Source: Flavobacterium sp. LC2016-23 (GTDB lineage Bacteria > Bacteroidota > Bacteroidia > Flavobacteriales > Flavobacteriaceae). From it: a DNA stretch of 64,000 nucleotides. Shown here one piece after another: positions 54,864-64,000 of the stretch; positions within the stretch are counted from its first letter, which is position 1, and each line of letters starts with the position of its first letter. The notes under the pieces were generated by a model. It had not been told where the DNA came from. It ran no database searches and saw only the letters and a list, made by a program, of their open reading frames with translations. The position numbers and the translations under genes were made by a program. The stretch lies in assembly GCF_009674775.1 (NCBI RefSeq), contig NZ_WKKE01000012.1:1-64000 (forward strand). Reading direction: 5' to 3'.

Positions 54864-54897
54864 AAAAGCCCTACTATTCTTTAGTAGGGCTTTTCTT
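54864..54897 (+). terminator. Terminator of the 54409-54837 gene
   Basis: AAAAGCCCTACTA (54864-54876) pairs perfectly with TAGTAGGGCTTTT (54882-54894), followed by CTTTTT. Confidence 0.85.
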
Positions 54898-55008
54898 TTT
54901 AATACGATCAATAGCTAGATTTGAATCTATATGTGGACTGTGTAAAATCTGACAATTTTTAAATATAAAATAACTTTAACATTCGCCCCTATAGCCCGCT
55001 AAATCAAC

Positions 55009-55047
55009 AAAAGAGACAGTTTTCTATGTTAGAAAACTGTCTCTTTT
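55009..55047 (+). terminator. Second strong hairpin, 18-bp perfect stem, orphan
   Basis: 55009-55026 pairs perfectly with 55030-55047 around a 3-nt loop, ending in TTTT. It lies 170 bp past the last stop codon and 133 bp before the sigma factor gene, so it ends no annotated gene. It may close a small RNA encoded in about 54900-55047. The rest of the spacer 54898-55179 shows no ORF. Confidence 0.6.
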
Positions 55048-55179
55048 GTGTAAAAAAATTGGTTTTATATATTTGCTTTTATATATTTATCGCACAAATC
55101 TAAAGAATAATGTTAAAAAACTATATTCTTTGTATTAAGTAAAAGTATCTTTTTTAGCAATTCTGCGCCCAAACAAATT

Positions 55180-55791
55180 ATGAAAACCACAACCGTACAA
55201 AACACTTTTGATGATATTACTCTTTGGAATAACATGAGGGAAGGTGATGAGAAATCCTTTTCGATATTATTTGAAAAGTATTACGGTGATTTAGTGCGTT
55301 ATGGCAATTCACTTTCGCCTTATACAGAAAAAGTGCAGGATTGCATACAAGATGTATTTATTGATGTCTGGAATTACAAAGAAAAACTGCAAAGTTCCGT
55401 TGTTGTAAAAGCGTACTTATTATCAAGTGTTCGCAAGAGAATTGCACGGCTGTACGAAAGAGATCATATTTTTAGAAAAGTCACCAGTACTGATTCTATT
55501 GCTTTTCTTTTGGAATTTTCGGTAGAACATGATCTTATAGACGATGACGATGATGCAACAAAAGAAAAAGTGGCCCGTTTAAATAATTTATTGAATAATC
55601 TTCCTCCCAGACAAAAAGAAGCTTTGTATCTCAAGTACCATCAGGGCTTGACAGTAGAGCAGATTGCTGAAATGCTCGACGTAAATTATCAGTCTGCAAG
55701 TAATTTATTATACCGTGGTTTACTTACGCTTCGTAAAGAATGGAAGGGTGCTTTATCCTTATTAACACTATTATCTTCAGGTACTTTTTAA
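55180..55791 (+). CDS. ECF-type RNA polymerase sigma factor
   Basis: 203 residues. Region 2 (about 25-90) has DEKSFSILFEKYYGDLVRYG and IQDVFIDVWNYKEKL. Region 4 (about 135-190) has LPPRQKEALYLKYHQGLTVEQIAEMLDVNYQSASNLLYR, for example GLTVEQIAEMLDVNYQS. This is the FecI-like group paired with FecR anti-sigma factors in Bacteroidota. It should direct transcription of the SusC/D-type genes downstream. First gene of the block; the fecR-like gene follows after 90 bp. Confidence 0.92.
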   Translation: MKTTTVQNTFDDITLWNNMREGDEKSFSILFEKYYGDLVRYGNSLSPYTEKVQDCIQDVFIDVWNYKEKLQSSVVVKAYLLSSVRKRIARLYERDHIFRKVTSTDSIAFLLEFSVEHDLIDDDDDATKEKVARLNNLLNNLPPRQKEALYLKYHQGLTVEQIAEMLDVNYQSASNLLYRGLLTLRKEWKGALSLLTLLSSGTF

Positions 55792-55881
55792 AAATATTTC
55801 AAAAAAAATAAAAAAAATCACAATTTGGTGAGTATATAATAAGAGGTCTGTCCTCTATGTTTTTGTAACCTCATTTTACAG

Positions 55882-56994
55882 ATGCAAAAACGTAATACCT
55901 ATACCGAAATTGAAGATTTTTTATCTGATGATTCATTCCAGGCCTGGATCTTGTCTAAAGTGGATGAAGAGGGTTGGGAAGAATGGACTTTAGAAAATCA
56001 ACAGCGTGCAAAACTGGTTGAAGATGCCAGATTAATATTGCTCGCCATGAAAGTACCGGAGTCGCAACTATCAGCTTCCGATATTCACAGAGCGTTACAA
56101 AATACCTGGATCAAAATTGAAAATAGCCAAAAGAAAATTGATTTCAGCCAAGGTACCAAACAGAGATTCGTTAAGAAATATTTTCTTTCCGGAGTTGCAG
56201 CAACCTTATTTTTTTGCTTACTGTCGGTTTGGTTTTACAAAAGCAGTTTTAACGAAGGTCATGAAATTGTAACCTACAAAGAACTTATAGATAAAAATAG
56301 TGAAGGATTGGTAGAGCAGACCAATAATTCCAATAAACCGCAAATCATCACATTATCTGATGGAAGTTCGGTTTTATTACAGCCCAATAGTAAATTAAGT
56401 TACCCTAAAATCTTTACCGGAAACGAAAGAAAGGTGTATTTGTCCGGCGAAGGTTTCTTTGAAATTAGTAAAAATCCTAAAAAGCCTTTTTTCGTTTATG
56501 CAAACGAAATCGTCACAAAAGTTGTAGGAACCAGTTTTAGAGTTAAAGCTTATTCTGATCAGCCTGATGTTGAAGTTCTTGTTCGCACCGGTAAAGTTAA
56601 GGTAAAATCCAATGAGTTAGTGTCGTCATCAGATCGGGAAGTAGTTTTGCTTCCTAATCAGGCCTTGCGATTTGTAAGACATGATTTAACTTTTAACAAA
56701 ATCACTAATATTACCGAGGATGAAACGCTGTCCGGCAGTGTGGGTAATATTGAACAATTGAGTTTTGAATTTACCGACATTCCTGTTTCCCAGATCTTTG
56801 AGACCATAGAGCAGGCCTACTTAATTGATATTGATTATCCTCACGAAAAGCTAAAGGATTGTCATCTTACCACCTCACTAAGCGATCAGCCCCTCACGGA
56901 AAAACTAAAAATTGTCTGTCGAAGTATTGGTAATAATACCAGTTTTGAGATGAATGGCAATCAGATTATTATAACATCTGAAGGATGTAATTAA
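55882..56994 (+). CDS. FecR-family anti-sigma factor
   Basis: 370 residues. Cytosolic N-terminal part (about 1-95) to bind the sigma factor, one membrane segment (YFLSGVAATLFFCLLSVWFY), FecR domain (about 145-245: ITLSDGSSVLLQPNSKLSYP, EGFFEISKNPKKPFFVYAN, GTSFRVKAY), and C-terminal DUF4974 domain (about 290-370: FEFTDIPVSQIFETIEQAY). It should receive the signal from the SusC STN domain and control the adjacent sigma factor. Standard for transport-linked regulation in the group. Confidence 0.93.
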   Translation: MQKRNTYTEIEDFLSDDSFQAWILSKVDEEGWEEWTLENQQRAKLVEDARLILLAMKVPESQLSASDIHRALQNTWIKIENSQKKIDFSQGTKQRFVKKYFLSGVAATLFFCLLSVWFYKSSFNEGHEIVTYKELIDKNSEGLVEQTNNSNKPQIITLSDGSSVLLQPNSKLSYPKIFTGNERKVYLSGEGFFEISKNPKKPFFVYANEIVTKVVGTSFRVKAYSDQPDVEVLVRTGKVKVKSNELVSSSDREVVLLPNQALRFVRHDLTFNKITNITEDETLSGSVGNIEQLSFEFTDIPVSQIFETIEQAYLIDIDYPHEKLKDCHLTTSLSDQPLTEKLKIVCRSIGNNTSFEMNGNQIIITSEGCN

Positions 56995-57103
56995 CTTTTT
57001 CAAAGACTTGTATCACTACTGTTGCCAGGGAATAATTTCAGTGCAGCATCTTATCATTTTTTAAAAGAGGTAAGCTGAATTCTTTTAAGCAGGAGGAGTT
57101 TGC

Positions 57104-57217
57104 ATGAATCTAAAAGAACAAAAAGAATCATTCAAAAATAAAAACAAAGGCCTATGTGAATTTAAAATGCAAAAAAAAAAGTGCCGAAATGCTGTAACAT
57201 TTTCGACACTTAAATAA
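57104..57217 (+). CDS. Candidate 37-residue leader peptide
   Basis: ATG at 57104 has AGGAGG 7 nt upstream, and the frame stays open for 37 codons (MNLKEQKESFKNKNKGLCEF, then basic residues) to TAA. The peptide is Lys-rich with two Cys; it has no known relative that I recognise. The frame crosses a run of ten A, so it would be sensitive to slippage. It could be a regulatory leader, or coincidence. Confidence 0.3.
   Translation: MNLKEQKESFKNKNKGLCEFKMQKKKCRNAVTFSTLK
57179..57211 (-). terminator. Hairpin with minus-strand T-run upstream of susC-like gene
   Basis: AAGTGCCGAAATG (57179-57191) pairs with CATTTTCGACACTT (57198-57211) with one G-U-type mismatch and one bulge. The ten-A run at 57171-57180 gives a T-run only on the minus strand, so it fits a terminator for antisense transcription from the susC leader. 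Confidence 0.5.
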
Positions 57218-57300
57218 AGTTGAATTGCTTTCTGTAAAAAGGAATTCATTCGTTTCTTAAAATACGCTCTAAACAGTATTAATCAAAACAAACCAAAATT

Positions 57301-60300
57301 ATGAAAAAACCAGTTGTTAAACAACGATTACTCCATCGAATCATGAAAATAACACTATTTCAGTTTGTCTTAGCACTTATATTTTCAAGTGGCGCTATGG
57401 CGAACGATGCAAATGGACAAAAAAAATTAGATACCAAAGTAACAATTACAGTTGAAAATTTAACTTTGGACAATGCGTTATCTAAACTTTCGAAATCTGC
57501 ACATGTAAAGTTTTCCTATAATTCAAGAATAGCGCAACTGAATCAGAAAGTAAGTATTGAAGCTAATAATGAAACATTATCTGCTATTCTGTCCAGAATT
57601 TTGGAGCCCCTAAACATTTCATATTCAGAAATCAGTAATCAGATTGTATTGCAAAAAAGCAGTAAAAATCTGTTCTCAGATTCAGAAAATACAAATTCAC
57701 TATTTGAAAGTTTAGTTCCGGGACCAATTATAAAAGGTAAAGTTACAGATCCCAGCGGTGTTCCGCTTCCGGGTGCTACAGTATTGGCAAAAGGGACTAA
57801 AATCGCTGTGCTTACAGACTTTGACGGTAACTTTTCGATAGATATGCCGGCCAATAGCACAGCATTGGTGATTTCTTATGTAGGTATGGAAACTAAAGAA
57901 ATCGGGATAGAAAATACGACTCCAACGGTAGTTCTGAATGAAGCAGGACAAAATTTAAAAGAAGTAGTAGTGACTACGGGTTACGAAAAAACATCAAAGA
58001 GAACTTTTACAGGAGCCATCAGCAAAATTTCCGGAACAGAATTAAAAGTAGACGGCGTTGTTGATATCAGCAGGATGATTGAAGGAAAAGCTGCCGGGGT
58101 TACCGTTCAGAACGTGACGGGTACATTTGGTACTGCGCCTAAAATTACAGTACGTGGATCTTCTTCTATCTTTGGAGATACAAAACCATTATGGGTTATT
58201 GATGGTGTGGTACAGGAAGATATTATCAATATTTCATTTGCTGATTTAGCTTCCGGAAATTCGGAAACTTTATTAAGTTCTGCCGTTGCAGGTTTGAATT
58301 CAAATGATATTCAAAGCATTGAAATTCTTAAAGATGCTTCTGCTACTTCAATCTATGGTTCAAGATCATTAAACGGGGTTGTAGTTGTAACAACGAAGCA
58401 AGGACGAAGGGATTCTCCGTTAAAAGTGAATTATTCTGTTGAAAATACAGTACGAACAGTTCCGAGTTATACGCAGTATGATATTTTAAATTCTCAGGAA
58501 TCGATGAGCATTTTAAAAGAAATGGAGCAAAAAGGATTTCTGGACATGCCCTCAACCCTTCAGGGAAGATATGGAGGGGTGTACAATCTTCTTTCCAGAC
58601 AAATTAATCTATATCAGACATCCGGAGGGCAATTTGGAGTGAAAAACGAACAGCCTTATCAAAACGAATTTTTAAAAAAATACGAATTAGCCAATACCGA
58701 CTGGTTCAAAGTTTTGTTCAGGCCATCCATTACACAAAATCACTCTTTGAGTTTTTCCGGTGGTGGAAAAAACAATACTTTTTATGCTTCTTTAGGTTAT
58801 TATACTGATCCGGGATGGACTATTGCGGACAGCGTTAAACAATTGTCATCCAATATAAAAGGAACTTTTTATGTAAATGATAAATTGAATATTACCTTAT
58901 CTACCATGGCTTCTGTTCGTGATCAGAATGCACCGGGAAGTTACGAAAGCCAGCAGGATGTTGTGTTTGGTAACGTAACAAGGGATTTCGATATCAATCC
59001 GTTTAATTATGTTTTAAGCACCAGCAGAACCCTGAGACCTTACGATGATTTAGGGAACAAGGAATATTACAGAAATAACTGGGCTCCGATGAATATTATA
59101 AATGAATTGGAAAACAATGTTTTAGAGATAAAAGTAAAAGATATTCGTTTTCAGTTGGATTTAGATTATAAAATCAACAAGCATTTAAGCTATAATCTTA
59201 CTGGTTCTGCGCGTTATGCGAACACCAGCAGAGAGCACAAAATCTATGAAAATTCTAATGTGGTGGAAGCTTACAAAGCAGGTACGGAATATGGAGCAGA
59301 CGGAGCTAATACCATTGTTAGAAATGCCAATATCTTTTTATATAAAGATCCAAACGATTTAACGGCACAACCCATTTCAGTATTGCCGAATGGAGGATTT
59401 TTAAGAAAATTTACAAATGATCTGACTTCATACAATATCAGAAACAGTGTAACATACCGAAACACTTTGAACGACAAACATGAATTAGAAGGCTTTTTTG
59501 GTACTGAATTAAGATCATTAGACCGAAACAGCGATAACTTTACAGCTGCCGGAATTCAGTATGACAGAGGACTTACTGCTTTTACGGATCCAAAGATTAT
59601 TGAAAAAATCATCAATGAGGGAAGTTCCTATTTTGGATTTAATACAGAAAGAGAAAGAACAGTTGGTTTCTTCGGAAAAGTAGGGTATACCTATGATCGT
59701 CGTTACACCGGTTCGATTACAGGTCGTTATGACGGATCGAACAGACAGGGAAACAGCGGTTCTTCAAGATGGCTGCCAACGTATACCGTAAGTGGTAAAT
59801 GGAATGTGGCCGAAGAGAAATTCATGAAAAATGTAGAATCTATAAATAATTTAGCTTTAAGAGCTTCTTATGGACTTACCGCTACAGCAGGACCTGCAAC
59901 AAATTCATTAGCGATTTACAAAAGTTTTATTACAGATCGTCTGGGAATTTCAGACAGAGAAACCGGAATTAATATTGACGAATTGCAAAATGCGGACTTA
60001 ACCTGGGAAAAACAATACGAAACAAACGTCGGTGTAGATTTGGGGATGTTTAACAACAGAGTACAATTTACAACAGATGTTTATAGCCGTAAAGCGTTTG
60101 ATTTGGTTGATTTCGTAGTGACTTCCGGAATTGGAGGACAAAAAATCAAACAGGGAAATAACGCCAATATGGAGACTAAGGGTATTGAGGTTGGTTTTAC
60201 CACTCAAAACATTGCAACAAGCAATTTTAAATGGTCAACAACACTTAATTTTTCCGTATACAACCAGGAAATTACCAAATTAGAAAATCAGCCAACTGCA

Positions 60301-61026
60301 TTTGATTTAGTGGATGGAAATGGAGGAAACGCCATCGGACGACCTAGAAACTCCATTTATTCTTACCAGTTTACAGGTTTAAACAATCAGGGACTACCTA
60401 CTTTTATCATGCAGGATGGAGAGTCTGATAAAGTAACAGGAGCTAATTTCCAGGATACTGAAAATGTGACGAAATACCTGAAATATGAAGGTTCTATTGA
60501 ACCTAATAAATCAATAGGTTTAGCGAACACTTTTACATACAAAAGATGGTCGCTATATGTATTTGTTGTAGGTTCAGGCGGAAATAAAGTTCGCTTAAAT
60601 CCGGCTTTCAGCAGTCAGTATGATGATTTGACTGTATTTACAAAAGACTTTACCAACCGCTGGATCAACCCTGGTGACGAACAATACACTAATGTTCCTG
60701 TAATTGCAGACAAACGACTGATTACCAACTACGATGGGGCAAATGCATTAGGACGTGCCTACAATACTTACAACTATTCTGATGTAAGAATTGCTGACGG
60801 TGATTTTGTGAGACTGAAAAATGTTTCGCTTAGCTGGGAATTTCCAAATGATTTCAAGAAAAAATTAGGAGTAAGTACTTTTACCTTAAAAGGTTCAGCG
60901 GTTAATCCTTGGCTGATTTATTCTGATAAGAGATTAAACGGACAAGATCCTGAATTCCGTAATACAGGTGGTGTTGCTTTTCCAATTACAACACAGTACA
61001 GTTTTTCTTTAAACCTTTCATTCTAA
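57301..61026 (+). CDS. SusC/RagA-type TonB-dependent outer-membrane transporter with STN domain
   Basis: 1241 residues. N-terminal signal (about 12-36), STN signalling domain (about 45-119: VTITVENLTLDNALSKLSK), CarboxypepD_reg-like domain (about 145-220: VTDPSGVPLPGATVLAKGTK), TonB plug (SKISGTELKVDGVVDISRMI; ATSIYGSRSLNGVVVVTTK), then a long beta-barrel ending in YSFSLNLSF with the terminal Phe. The STN domain indicates signalling to the FecR anti-sigma. Substrate unknown. The SusD partner starts 12 bp after the stop. Confidence 0.95.
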   Translation: MKKPVVKQRLLHRIMKITLFQFVLALIFSSGAMANDANGQKKLDTKVTITVENLTLDNALSKLSKSAHVKFSYNSRIAQLNQKVSIEANNETLSAILSRILEPLNISYSEISNQIVLQKSSKNLFSDSENTNSLFESLVPGPIIKGKVTDPSGVPLPGATVLAKGTKIAVLTDFDGNFSIDMPANSTALVISYVGMETKEIGIENTTPTVVLNEAGQNLKEVVVTTGYEKTSKRTFTGAISKISGTELKVDGVVDISRMIEGKAAGVTVQNVTGTFGTAPKITVRGSSSIFGDTKPLWVIDGVVQEDIINISFADLASGNSETLLSSAVAGLNSNDIQSIEILKDASATSIYGSRSLNGVVVVTTKQGRRDSPLKVNYSVENTVRTVPSYTQYDILNSQESMSILKEMEQKGFLDMPSTLQGRYGGVYNLLSRQINLYQTSGGQFGVKNEQPYQNEFLKKYELANTDWFKVLFRPSITQNHSLSFSGGGKNNTFYASLGYYTDPGWTIADSVKQLSSNIKGTFYVNDKLNITLSTMASVRDQNAPGSYESQQDVVFGNVTRDFDINPFNYVLSTSRTLRPYDDLGNKEYYRNNWAPMNIINELENNVLEIKVKDIRFQLDLDYKINKHLSYNLTGSARYANTSREHKIYENSNVVEAYKAGTEYGADGANTIVRNANIFLYKDPNDLTAQPISVLPNGGFLRKFTNDLTSYNIRNSVTYRNTLNDKHELEGFFGTELRSLDRNSDNFTAAGIQYDRGLTAFTDPKIIEKIINEGSSYFGFNTERERTVGFFGKVGYTYDRRYTGSITGRYDGSNRQGNSGSSRWLPTYTVSGKWNVAEEKFMKNVESINNLALRASYGLTATAGPATNSLAIYKSFITDRLGISDRETGINIDELQNADLTWEKQYETNVGVDLGMFNNRVQFTTDVYSRKAFDLVDFVVTSGIGGQKIKQGNNANMETKGIEVGFTTQNIATSNFKWSTTLNFSVYNQEITKLENQPTAFDLVDGNGGNAIGRPRNSIYSYQFTGLNNQGLPTFIMQDGESDKVTGANFQDTENVTKYLKYEGSIEPNKSIGLANTFTYKRWSLYVFVVGSGGNKVRLNPAFSSQYDDLTVFTKDFTNRWINPGDEQYTNVPVIADKRLITNYDGANALGRAYNTYNYSDVRIADGDFVRLKNVSLSWEFPNDFKKKLGVSTFTLKGSAVNPWLIYSDKRLNGQDPEFRNTGGVAFPITTQYSFSLNLSF

Positions 61027-61037
61027 TATAGTTGATT

Positions 61038-62522
61038 ATGAAAAATATAAAATATATAAAAATCACCCTGGCATTTTTACTGATCATTACGCTCAGCAGC
61101 TGCGATGAATTTCTTTCGGAAGTGCCGGATAACAGAACGCAAATTGATACGCCGGATAAAATATCGGAATTACTGGTAAATGCCTATCCGGAAGCCTCTT
61201 ATATGGATTTTGCCGAAACGATGTCTGATAACGTTGCAGACGCGGGACTGAACAACTCCAATATAAAAAACGAGCAGAGCTATTATTGGGAAATGCACGA
61301 TCAGACCAATGTAGATAGTGAAGCCAACTACTGGGATGCCTGCTATAAAGCTATTGCCCATGCCAATCAGGCACTGGAATCGATTAAAAAACTTGGAGAT
61401 CCCGCTGGTTTAAATCCGCAAAAAGGAGAAGCCTTACTGGCCAGAGCCTATGCACACTTTATGTTAGTGACATTTTGGTCCAATCGTTACAATCCCGCTA
61501 CAGCAGCGAAAGATTTAGGAGTACCTTATGTAACGGAACCGGAAACGGAATTGCTGAAAAGCTACAAAAGAAATAGTGTAGAAGAAGTTTTTAATTTTAT
61601 TCAGAAGGACCTGGAGGAAGGTCTGAGATATGTAACCAACGATTACAAAGAACCTAAATTTCATTTCAATAAAGAAGCCGCTAAAGCATTTGCGAGCCGT
61701 TTCTATCTTGTAAAAGGAGATTGGGATAAAGTACTGGAAGTTTCTGCCAGTTTAGGTTCTAAGCCTGACGGAAAGCTTAAAGATTATGTAACGCTGTCAA
61801 GCCTGGCTCCGGATGTTCAGTTTATAGAATACGGAAAATCATCTTATACGGCTAATCTGCTCATAGCATCCCCGAATACACTTATAGGAAGATCTGCAAG
61901 CGGTAGCAACTATTATCTTACTGATGGAAAACAAACGGAGCTTTTTGGCCCTCAAACCAGTTTTTACAATAAAGCATGGTTGTTTGATTTTTACAGTTAC
62001 AACAGCAGCAGCACCTTGTTTACACCGAAGTTTGAAGAATACTTTAAATATACCAACCTGACGGCGAATATAGGAATACCGTATGCCGGAATTGTGCTTT
62101 TATCTAATGATGAGTTTTACCTGAACCGTATTGAAGCACTGGTAATGAAGAACAGAATTGAAGAAGCCAATACAGAATTAGAGTATTTTTTAGGAACAAG
62201 AACAGCAGGATACAATCCGACAACAGATAAACTGACTGAAGCGAAAGTAGTGGCAAAATACCCGGTTATTACAGATGAGTTTACACCTTATTACAGCCTG
62301 ACGCCATTGCAGACTTCTTATGTTAAAGCCATTGCAGAAGCGAGAAGAAGGGATTTTGTACACGAAGGATTAAGATGGCTTGATGTAAAACGTTTTAATA
62401 TTGTAGTAAGCCGAAATGACGCTGGTAGTCCGGTTAAAACTTTGGTAAAAGACGATAAACGCAGAGCTTTGCAAATACCGCTTAGCGCATCAAACTACGG
62501 AATAGAAAAAAATCCCCGATAA
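61038..62522 (+). CDS. SusD/RagB-type surface lipoprotein
   Basis: 494 residues from ATG 61038 (MKNIKYIK); ATG 61032 adds two. Lipobox LSSC gives the acylated Cys. The TPR-like helices (NYWDACYKAIAHANQALESI; GEALLARAYAHFMLV) and the closing EARRRDFVHEGLRWLDVKRF are standard SusD marks. It forms the lid on the SusC barrel and binds the substrate outside the cell. The end DDKRRALQIPLSASNYGIEKNPR closes as usual. Next gene follows after 22 bp. Confidence 0.95.
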   Translation: MKNIKYIKITLAFLLIITLSSCDEFLSEVPDNRTQIDTPDKISELLVNAYPEASYMDFAETMSDNVADAGLNNSNIKNEQSYYWEMHDQTNVDSEANYWDACYKAIAHANQALESIKKLGDPAGLNPQKGEALLARAYAHFMLVTFWSNRYNPATAAKDLGVPYVTEPETELLKSYKRNSVEEVFNFIQKDLEEGLRYVTNDYKEPKFHFNKEAAKAFASRFYLVKGDWDKVLEVSASLGSKPDGKLKDYVTLSSLAPDVQFIEYGKSSYTANLLIASPNTLIGRSASGSNYYLTDGKQTELFGPQTSFYNKAWLFDFYSYNSSSTLFTPKFEEYFKYTNLTANIGIPYAGIVLLSNDEFYLNRIEALVMKNRIEEANTELEYFLGTRTAGYNPTTDKLTEAKVVAKYPVITDEFTPYYSLTPLQTSYVKAIAEARRRDFVHEGLRWLDVKRFNIVVSRNDAGSPVKTLVKDDKRRALQIPLSASNYGIEKNPR

Positions 62523-62544
62523 TTTTAATTCAATTTTTTAGACT

Positions 62545-63405
62545 ATGAAAATATTAAAAAAATATAAAGCAATACTGGCAGTTGCAGGGGTTTTAACTTT
62601 TACAGCCTGTGCCCATGAAGATCAGCCAACCGAAAGTCAGCTGGATTATTCAATACCTGTAAAAACAGCCTTAGACAACTGGATTTCGACTAACTTTCTT
62701 AATCCGTATAATATCAGTGCACAATACAAATGGAACCAGAACAAAGTAGATAACAACAGATTCCTTTTTCCTCCGTTGGTAGAGAATGTACAACCGGCGC
62801 TGGAAGTTGTTAAACAAATCTGGATTGACAGTTATTCGGAAGTAGGCGGTGCTGATTTTGTAAAGATACTGGCACCAAGGGAAATTGTTCTGGTTGGAGG
62901 CCTAAACTCTAATTCGAACGGAACAAGAACACTTGGAATTGCAGACTCCGGACAAAGAATCACCCTTTTTGAGGTAGATTATCTGGACACATCAAATCGT
63001 GAAAATGTTACCGAATTCATTCATACCATTCAACACGAATATGTACATATCTTAAATCAAAACAAGCCTTTTGATGAACAGGCCTGGCAAAAAATAACGC
63101 CGGGAGATTATACCGGAACGTGGCATTTAGAGCAGCTTCAGACCTCAAGAAATCTGGGGTTTGTAACCAACTACGCAAGAAATAATATTATTGAAGATTT
63201 TGCTGAAACAGCCTCTACCATACTGACGAGTTCAAAAGCAGAATATGCGGCGCTTTTGGCCAGTATTACCAATGCAAACGGAAGAGCAAAACTGAAACAG
63301 AAAGAAGCAATAGTTGTACAATATTATAAAGATGCTTTTAATATTGATTTCTATGCTTTAAGAGATGCTGCTGAGAGAAATACAACAGCTGTTGTTAATC
63401 AATAA
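62545..63405 (+). CDS. Substrate-import-associated zinc metallohydrolase lipoprotein
   Basis: 286 residues. Lipobox (VLTFTAC, C22). HEXXH motif H164-E165-Y-V-H168 in TIQHEYVHILNQN, then a downstream Glu in IIEDFAETAST for the third zinc ligand. The layout fits the TIGR04549-type lipoproteins found with SusC/SusD pairs. A surface metallohydrolase that cuts the imported substrate, or releases it from a carrier, is the usual idea, but no activity is established to my knowledge. Third gene of the import operon. Confidence 0.88.
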   Translation: MKILKKYKAILAVAGVLTFTACAHEDQPTESQLDYSIPVKTALDNWISTNFLNPYNISAQYKWNQNKVDNNRFLFPPLVENVQPALEVVKQIWIDSYSEVGGADFVKILAPREIVLVGGLNSNSNGTRTLGIADSGQRITLFEVDYLDTSNRENVTEFIHTIQHEYVHILNQNKPFDEQAWQKITPGDYTGTWHLEQLQTSRNLGFVTNYARNNIIEDFAETASTILTSSKAEYAALLASITNANGRAKLKQKEAIVVQYYKDAFNIDFYALRDAAERNTTAVVNQ

Positions 63406-63438
63406 GCACTTTAATGTACAATTTATAAAAGTAAAATT

Positions 63439-64000
63439 ATGAAACCAAAAAATATATTGAAGTACTTAATGGTTGCCTTTCTGGCAGTGTATGCCTTAGG
63501 CGCTTGTACAAATAGCACAGAAGCAGAACAGATATTCGATAAAACCCCGTCGGAACGTCTGAATGCACAAAAAAAAGAATTAAACGATGCGTTGCTTTCT
63601 TCAGAGTTTGGCTGGAAAGCCGTTTACTTTACCGATGATACGCAGTTAGGAGGCTTTACACATTTGTTTAAATTCTCTGCCGGAGGAAAAGTAGTAATGG
63701 CATCTGATTTTGATGATGATGTCCTGCCTCATGAAAGCGAGTATGATGTGGTATTAGGGAGTACAGTTAGTCTAGTATTTACCACATTCAATAAAATACA
63801 TCTTTTATCCGATTCAGACAACTATCCAACCAGTGCTTTAAGAGGTAAGGGATATCTGGGAGATTTTCAGTTTTTATATTACGGACAGGAAAATGGTGAT
63901 CTTGTTTTTAAAAGCAACAGATTAGTCAGAGAAGTACGTTTTGTAAAAGCCACACAGCAAGACTGGACGGATTTGGCTAAAAATCTGGTATCGAAGCAAA
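63439..64000 (+). CDS. DUF4302-like lipoprotein, 3' end cut by window
   Basis: 187 complete codons are visible from ATG 63439. A lipoprotein signal has lipobox ALGAC (Cys near residue 24). The region FDKTPSERLNAQKKELNDAL then SSEFGWKAVYFTD matches the start of DUF4302 (PF14135), which often accompanies SusCD operons with the zinc metallohydrolase lipoprotein. It is probably a surface substrate-binding protein. The gene is open to the window end and continues beyond it, so its length and C-terminus are unknown. Confidence 0.85.
   Translation, partial: MKPKNILKYLMVAFLAVYALGACTNSTEAEQIFDKTPSERLNAQKKELNDALLSSEFGWKAVYFTDDTQLGGFTHLFKFSAGGKVVMASDFDDDVLPHESEYDVVLGSTVSLVFTTFNKIHLLSDSDNYPTSALRGKGYLGDFQFLYYGQENGDLVFKSNRLVREVRFVKATQQDWTDLAKNLVSKQ

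Follow-up and report, generated by a model that had tools for sequence, protein, structure and literature searches.

We analysed 64,000 nucleotides of Flavobacterium sp. LC2016-23 (contig NZ_WKKE01000012.1, positions 1 to 64,000, forward strand), referred to here as the window; the whole contig has 176 kb and the genome 5.39 Mb. At its end lies a six-gene operon, entirely on the plus strand, that encodes an extracytoplasmic function (ECF)-type sigma factor, a FecR-type anti-sigma factor, a SusC-type transporter with an STN domain, a SusD-type lipoprotein, an Mx1 metallopeptidase lipoprotein and a DUF4302 lipoprotein. An earlier reading of the letters alone (the sequence-only reading) had proposed this order, and profile searches confirmed all genes, families and strands at the positions it gave. 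It had missed a predicted antisense RNA across the susC leader, which is new here and so far unannotated. The features are as follows.

54864..54894, strand not assigned: hairpin resembling a terminator, between the sigma factor gene and the gene before it
55180..55791, plus: ECF-type sigma-70 factor gene; PF04542, PF08281 and TIGR02937 over cut-off (sigma-70 regions 2 and 4)
55882..56994, plus: FecR-type anti-sigma factor gene; PF04773 (FecR) and PF16344 (FecR_C) over cut-off
57171..57289, minus: predicted cis-antisense RNA of about 119 nt across the susC leader; ends placed from the -7 box and the T-run
57222-57248 (about), 57180-57211 and on to about 57171, minus: upstream hairpin, terminator hairpin and U-run of the predicted antisense RNA
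57294..57324, minus: antisense promoter-like element; TTG at 57322-57324, 20-nt spacer, TAATTTTG -7 box at 57294-57301
57301..61026, plus: susC-type TonB-dependent transporter gene; STN (PF07660), Plug (PF07715), CarbopepD_reg_2, TIGR04056
61038..62522, plus: susD-type lipoprotein gene; SusD-like_3 (PF14322), 141 bits, cut-off 27
62545..63405, plus: Mx1/TIGR04549 zinc metallopeptidase lipoprotein gene; Peptidase_Mx1 260 bits (cut-off 25.6), TIGR04549 288.9 (cut-off 75)
63439..64000 in the window, on to 64788 (L002:9439-10788), plus: DUF4302 lipoprotein gene; PF14135, cut-off 27
64826-64845 on the window scale (L002:10826-10845): hairpin and T-run 37 bp past the DUF4302 gene; terminator, end of the operon

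SusC scores 617 bits against TIGR04056 (cut-off 368) and carries its STN domain in the N-terminal part (residues 70-119). The 449-residue DUF4302 protein scores 134.9 bits for the part within the window and 155.4 for the whole gene, and the sigma factor lies below the cut-off of the Bacteroidetes subfamily TIGR02985 (87.6 versus 126.4). A SusC/RagA TonB-dependent protein thus adjoins a SusD-family lipoprotein, as in SusCD importers, and an ECF sigma factor, FecR and STN share one cluster, as in surface signalling; the carbohydrate-active enzymes that mark a polysaccharide utilization locus (PUL) are missing from the operon. The intergenic gaps measure, in gene order, 90, 306, 5, 22 and 33 bp, the 5 bp separating susC from susD, so the gaps are short from susC on, as had been noted; the likelier start of susD is ATG 61038, although the reading frame is also open from TTG 61032. 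The 306-bp gap upstream of susC suggests that susC has a promoter of its own. TIGR04549 and DUF4302 each occur once in the genome by profile search, both in this operon. The nearest relatives of its Mx1 (84-85% identity) belong to Flavobacterium sp. HBTb2-11-1 and CF136, and the closest solved SusCD pair is 8YPT and 8YPU.

The sequence-only reading had seen no carbohydrate-active enzyme before the window ends, and the genes beyond position 64,000 bear this out. The DUF4302 gene is followed by the terminator, a 93-residue open reading frame (ORF), fabG and a von Willebrand factor A (VWA)-type gene (labels from reading the translations), and therefore no such enzyme follows in the operon; no glycoside hydrolase (GH) or polysaccharide lyase (PL) lies between DUF4302 and the terminator. 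A GH5 protein some 7 kb beyond, past unrelated genes (L002:17799-18800), is the sole glycosidase found in the 10 kb downstream, whose genes were scanned in part. Upstream, the hairpin at 54864-54894 is likely the operon boundary. A near-perfect inverted repeat at 55007-55049 (AAAGAGACAGTTTTCTA...TAGAAAACTGTCTCTTT), about 130 bp before the sigma factor gene, came up through sub-threshold Rfam matches and could form a hairpin on either strand.

That TIGR04549 lipoproteins recur beside SusCD pairs, as the sequence-only reading had stated, is strongly supported by the operon comparison, which sharpens it to a block of four genes. We compared 126 loci holding 128 Mx1 genes (119 distinct), of which 46, including that of the window, came from the panels and 80 from a genome scan that had 528 confirmed matches and kept the 80 best. 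The order SusC-SusD-Mx1-DUF4302 is kept for 120 of the 128 Mx1 genes; the eight deviations comprise five contig ends, two cases of an opposite-strand ORF over the expected gene and one locus (L109) with SusC set apart. TIGR04549 exceeds its cut-off in 23/299 genomes of the family and in 21/395 of the phylum, and a comparison of the two lists shows that DUF4302 occurs in the same 21 phylum genomes. A Bacteroidales-like panel (the family of G513) has DUF4302 in 53/201 genomes, and 39/41 DUF4302 genes there stand in the same four-gene order (40 stretches for 69 listed places, mostly the best-scoring). SusC-SusD-Mx1-DUF4302 is a rigid, widespread module of a functionally unassigned kind.

The signalling genes behave differently from this block. 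Among the 123 Mx1 genes for which SusC was identified, FecR and STN are both present in 81 and both absent in 40; in the two discordant loci susC is either broken into two ORFs (L145) or stands at the very start of the contig (L150). These are not 123 independent events, since about half of the FecR-containing (FecR+) loci are from Flavobacterium. Signalling by STN and FecR is a detachable cassette on the module. The co-occurrence in 121 of 123 loci shows the STN-FecR coupling, and the earlier proposal that the system signals to itself appears well supported.

The antisense RNA is predicted from the gap between fecR and susC, the first half of which is unconserved and the last 150 bp of which are conserved (34 sequences). 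In 35 Flavobacterium sequences (36 were found; L152, a longer stretch, was left out) the minus strand of this region folds into two hairpins, and an invariant T-run comes after the second. The structure pairs in 88.7% of cells, and 11 of its 22 pairs change on both sides, a count reached by none of 500 shuffles; slid controls gave at most 7. The window sequence folds at -26.9 kcal/mol on the minus strand (z -2.93) and -19.7 on the plus strand (z -1.70), with means over the 35 sequences of -31.0 and -20.0. The covariance model R1 finds only this site in its own genome. No Rfam family matched the leader, and elsewhere in the stretch there were only sub-threshold matches. In L159 (4652-4786) both hairpin loops show the same single change (TTACAG to TTAGAG), a hint of a common partner.

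The putative promoter is conserved as well. On the minus strand its TAATTTTG -7 box runs over the start codon of susC; the full TTG/-7 (-33/-7) motif occurs in 40/40 Flavobacterium FecR+ loci. Codons 5, 8 and 10 of susC are fixed to one codon in 36/36 sequences and codon 9 in 35/36; for comparison, 1 of 37 fully conserved leucine columns is equally fixed. The motif used to find the starts was strict and found 36 of 37 loci examined, the miss being L162, which has no FecR. TAnnTTTG is given as the sigma-A consensus of F. psychrophilum in an excerpt of PMC9723704, and an excerpt of PMC7366714 has the -7 box confirmed in F. johnsoniae. The existence of the predicted antisense RNA is strongly supported by these sequence comparisons.

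A minus-strand terminator 30-200 bp before susC is present in 40/40 Flavobacterium FecR+ loci and, outside Flavobacterium, in 24/36 FecR+ versus 6/35 loci lacking FecR (FecR-). The -7 box sits exactly at the start codon in 38/39 Flavobacterium and 11/31 other FecR+ susC genes (ATG starts), compared with 0/23 non-Flavobacterium FecR- susC genes and 3/490 unrelated genes. A control for plus-strand terminators is reversed outside Flavobacterium (FecR+ 4/36, FecR- 14/35), as expected if they end upstream genes. Additionally, the hairpin tip TGYTN2-4RCA recurs on differing stems (18/18 in FecR+ loci), and R1 gives six weak matches in other genera, four of them at the same place. A stricter terminator window (-100 to -40, folding free energy -10 or lower; 20/76 versus 1/37 over all genera) was not used, because Flavobacterium terminators lie near -120 and are mostly missed by it. 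The window genome has seven other FecR-SusC loci, of which five show a minus-strand terminator at -60 to -91 and two of these five also the start-codon -7 box; the predicted antisense RNA is therefore a trait of the signalling type and not of the Mx1 cargo. By these sequence marks it appears general in Flavobacterium, frequent in other FecR-type loci and rare without FecR.

The window Mx1 has a lipid site at Cys22 and the motif H164-E165-xx-H168, followed by Y210, E217, D218 and E221. Among 118 Mx1 proteins, counted after one short fragment had been dropped, H164 is kept in 118, E165 in 116, H168 in 116, Y210 in 116, E217 (or Asp) in 118, D218 in 118 and E221 in 117; the window protein is among the 116 that keep HExxH. 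An AlphaFold2 model (predicted local distance difference test, pLDDT, 91.4) superimposes on the solved Mx1 4l7a with Z 27.6 and on the catalytic domain of anthrax lethal factor with Z 10.8 (root-mean-square deviation, rmsd, 4.3 over 183 residues, about 13-14% identity); the match to PPEP-3 (Z 7.9) is within the background that the tool warns of. The second solved Mx1, 9urd, was not among the rows of the fold comparison. Lethal factor and the PPEP enzymes (M34) have the spacing H-E-x-x-H ... Y-x6-E, and Y210-x6-E217 of Mx1 is spaced in the same way. On account of this fold similarity and spacing, Mx1 is more likely a peptidase than another kind of hydrolase. Literature searches on Peptidase_Mx1 and on the metallohydrolase name found nothing; one on DUF4302 found two papers.

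Sequence searches gave no solved relative of DUF4302. The model of a homologue (L133; pLDDT 92.5) has three barrel domains, near residues 41-171, 179-286 and 292-447. Among the structures listed, even the closest resemble them only weakly (Z 8.3 or less) and are lipocalins or other small barrels; profile comparison found no repeat relation among the three. Seventeen Mx1 proteins, none from Flavobacterium loci, have a C-terminal extension of 162-190 residues that aligns with the third barrel (hhalign 94.9%, E 4.6e-8) but not with the first (E 0.009) or the second (E 0.15). This fusion supports a direct partnership between Mx1 and DUF4302. Foldseek matches of DUF4302 to beta-clamp-like proteins (rmsd near 18) were not credited, and a profile match between SusD and DUF4302 was rejected as covering the signal-peptide end only.

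Downstream of the module we scanned 40 proteins with Pfam, being cluster representatives and some other neighbours and thus part of the genes. Housekeeping and surface functions predominate among them (Porin_10, BshC, RNase HII, OmpA, BACON), and GH domains occur in three: two chitinases of L176 and the distant GH5 protein of the window genome. For the Bacteroidales, 59 same-strand proteins of at least 150 residues were taken from behind 41 modules, and 33 of the 35 matched Pfam families were inspected; no GH or PL is among these 33. The families there are BACON (20 proteins), BspA-type leucine-rich repeat, RCC1, DUF4856, peptidases M6 and M49, GDSL lipase and the carbohydrate-binding CBM_4_9 (3 proteins).

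Many marine Flavobacteriaceae have the module just upstream of a putative porin (Porin_10) gene and mostly a divergent RNase HII-type gene upstream (Porin_10 in most of L092, L094-L105, L107, L108, L178-L180, L183, L185, L186, L191 and L201). Small ORFs past the module (L002:10930-11211, L135, L136, L139, L143, L147 and others) share a leader-like start (MLKTILNF.GVE.LS...), a Gly-rich break and variable tails, and resemble bacteriocin-type leader peptides; the copy in the window genome has no Pfam match. A second small family of two-helix proteins of about 91 residues with two hydrophobic stretches by eye (cluster e0, 20 members) directly follows DUF4302 in many Flavobacterium loci (e.g., L132:12371-12646). 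Both were set aside as operon members or cargo, since they lie beyond the terminator here and elsewhere are variably present and syntenic with fabG, not with the module.

We read the operon as a SusCD importer for proteinaceous cargo that reports its own use and carries an antisense brake, and put the probability of this reading at roughly 0.55. Its regulatory half is the stronger and newer result; that the cargo is a peptide or glycopeptide we consider an even bet. Mx1, DUF4302 and SusD, presumably at the cell surface, would act together: Mx1 would trim or release the ligand, the triple-barrel DUF4302 protein may bind it or dock Mx1 beside SusCD, SusD would close over it and SusC would import it. 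Judged by the families involved, loaded SusC would signal through STN to FecR and thereby free the ECF sigma factor for transcription from susC on. The antisense RNA, which would start from the housekeeping-type promoter that covers the susC start codon and stop at its own terminator, would pair with the susC leader and, by analogy with DonS, keep susC off while the sigma factor is idle; it is probably a brake on the operon.

Several observations weigh against this reading. On the regulatory side, 12 of the 36 non-Flavobacterium FecR+ loci are without an antisense terminator, and the full -33/-7 pattern occurs in only 2 of the 36 (0.4 expected), so it was dropped as a cross-genus mark and the -7 box alone was retained. 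Two Flavobacterium loci are FecR-, among them L150 (introduced above); the terminator is present in one of these and the -7 box in one. Also, most of the sequences are related, and p-values therefore overstate their independence. On the cargo side, five Mx1 genes read HQxxK or HQxxR where the others keep HExxH (L109 and L115, 2/118; L243, L246 and L253, 3/40) while the module stays, which indicates that cleavage is dispensable in these loci. In L176 (Aquimarina), genes for GH19 and GH18 chitinases begin 392 bp behind the module, and the B. thetaiotaomicron genes BT3958-3961 (PUL71), a presumed counterpart, are described, in excerpts of PMC5238430 and PMC13088901, as a mucin O-glycan (core 1) PUL.

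In the annotation of PUL71, as far as excerpted, BT3958 is a TonB receptor, BT3959 a SusD protein and BT3961 a DUF4302 protein, with the protease-like BT3960 between them. An excerpt of PMC6222051 lists BT3960 as a putative protease enriched in outer membrane vesicles, and one of PMC10434189 has BT3958-59 and BT3961 fall 2.6- to 3.6-fold in iron depletion, as many Sus loci do. We infer from gene order that BT3960 is an Mx1 protein, and presume BT3958-3961, the closest functional record for the cargo, to be the counterpart of our module. In PMC4071793 a GH92 enzyme of the range BT3853-BT3862 is called 'BT3958'; as this number lies outside that range and disagrees with the other papers, it was read as a misprint.

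The operon could instead import glycans, that is, short O-glycans or glycosylated fragments freed by enzymes encoded elsewhere, with Mx1 clearing the peptide part or being accessory. We regard this as unlikely. It would fit PUL71, since BT3958/BT3959 are reported, again in excerpts, to be induced by the core 1 disaccharide and to appear on galactooligosaccharides and milk oligosaccharides; the chitinases of L176 and the CBM_4_9 domain in 3/59 downstream Bacteroidales proteins point the same way. However, the window operon holds no GH or PL, such enzymes are equally missing from the inspected Bacteroidales families, and the link to B. thetaiotaomicron is one of gene order, not of compared sequence. 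We take GH92 genes to lie downstream of PUL71. The L176 chitinases (L176:12607-18705) bear CBM5/12 and type IX secretion system (T9SS) tails. The view of the sequence-only reading that the cargo is no plain glycan is plausible, given the lack of a GH in the operon and in the inspected Bacteroidales families and the peptidase-like fold of the Mx1 model, and is qualified by PUL71 and the Aquimarina locus.

An improbable alternative to the antisense RNA is that the conserved hairpins are a sense-strand leader structure or protein-binding DNA palindromes. The loops of both hairpins read CTGTAA on the plus strand, and in L159 both read CTCTAA, as for a shared binding protein. Nevertheless, 34/35 sequences have, at one position of the stem, U.G on the minus strand and hence a C-A mismatch on the plus strand; a T-run is found only behind the 3' end of the minus-strand structure; that strand is the more stable of the two in 35/35 sequences; and the -7 box placement control counts against both versions.

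It is more doubtful still that Mx1 is mainly a binding or gating subunit with hydrolysis secondary. The five Mx1 genes without HExxH would suit such a role; in L109 and L246 a DUF4856 protein (Pfam) adjoins downstream, the downstream protein of L115 clusters with that of L109, and L243 and L253 show the same layout of genes downstream. Retention of HExxH in 116/118 Mx1 proteins, that of the window included, argues against it. The five loci form a subtype with a shorter DUF4302 (about 343 residues) and extra lipoprotein genes including DUF4856. Least probable is uptake linked to metal, haem or siderophores, in which DUF4302 would be a TbpB-like receptor: the FecI/FecR/STN logic is classically iron-linked and the DUF4302 barrels are weakly similar to those of TbpB and fHbp (Z 3-4), but the TbpB matches are at background level and the fall of the PUL71 genes in iron depletion disfavours a metal-bound ligand, one of the cargoes that the sequence-only reading had suggested.

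The proposed importer with an antisense brake can be set beside several known systems. FecI-FecR-FecA signalling likewise has its ECF sigma factor, FecR and a TonB receptor with STN domain encoded together, whereas here the receptor is a SusC with a SusD partner and an antisense RNA is predicted in addition. Known TIGR04549/Peptidase_Mx1 lipoproteins beside SusCD (4l7a, 9urd) share family, lipoprotein signal, HExxH and gene position; the near-invariant block with DUF4302, the barrel fusions and the inactive subtypes are shown here in addition. The M34-like peptidases show some similarity to the Mx1 model in fold (Z 10.8 and 7.9) and a like motif spacing, whereas Mx1 is a predicted surface lipoprotein encoded in an import operon. 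According to an excerpt of PMC7366714, DonS-type antisense RNAs measure 78-128 nt and lower susC expression in Bacteroides (about 119 nt is predicted here from the -7 box and T-run), and an excerpt of PMC10994844 has 32 PUL-associated antisense RNAs annotated in B. thetaiotaomicron. The predicted RNA shares with DonS the position antisense to the susC 5' end, a sigma-A type promoter and an intrinsic terminator; unlike DonS, it was found by comparative sequence in Flavobacteriaceae and is tied to STN/FecR-type systems.

Most SusCD research concerns glycan loci, and a literature search on SusCD, peptide and marine found nothing; a strictly conserved, glycosidase-free importer with a probable surface peptidase would be a clean test of how wide protein-derived cargo is. 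The barrel common to DUF4302 and Mx1 suggests how two orphan families cooperate. More tentatively, and a shade short of even odds, STN, FecR, the sigma factor and the antisense leader RNA may form one inherited control module in Flavobacteriaceae that is added or stripped as a unit and here governs a glycopeptide importer with Mx1 and a triple-barrel DUF4302 protein. Loss of STN and FecR would then bring loss of the antisense RNA, and each self-sensing SusC would therefore have a built-in RNA brake. If true, the antisense RNA would show that PUL-type RNA control reaches beyond Bacteroides to Flavobacteriia of soil and water, and would tie it to one type of signalling.

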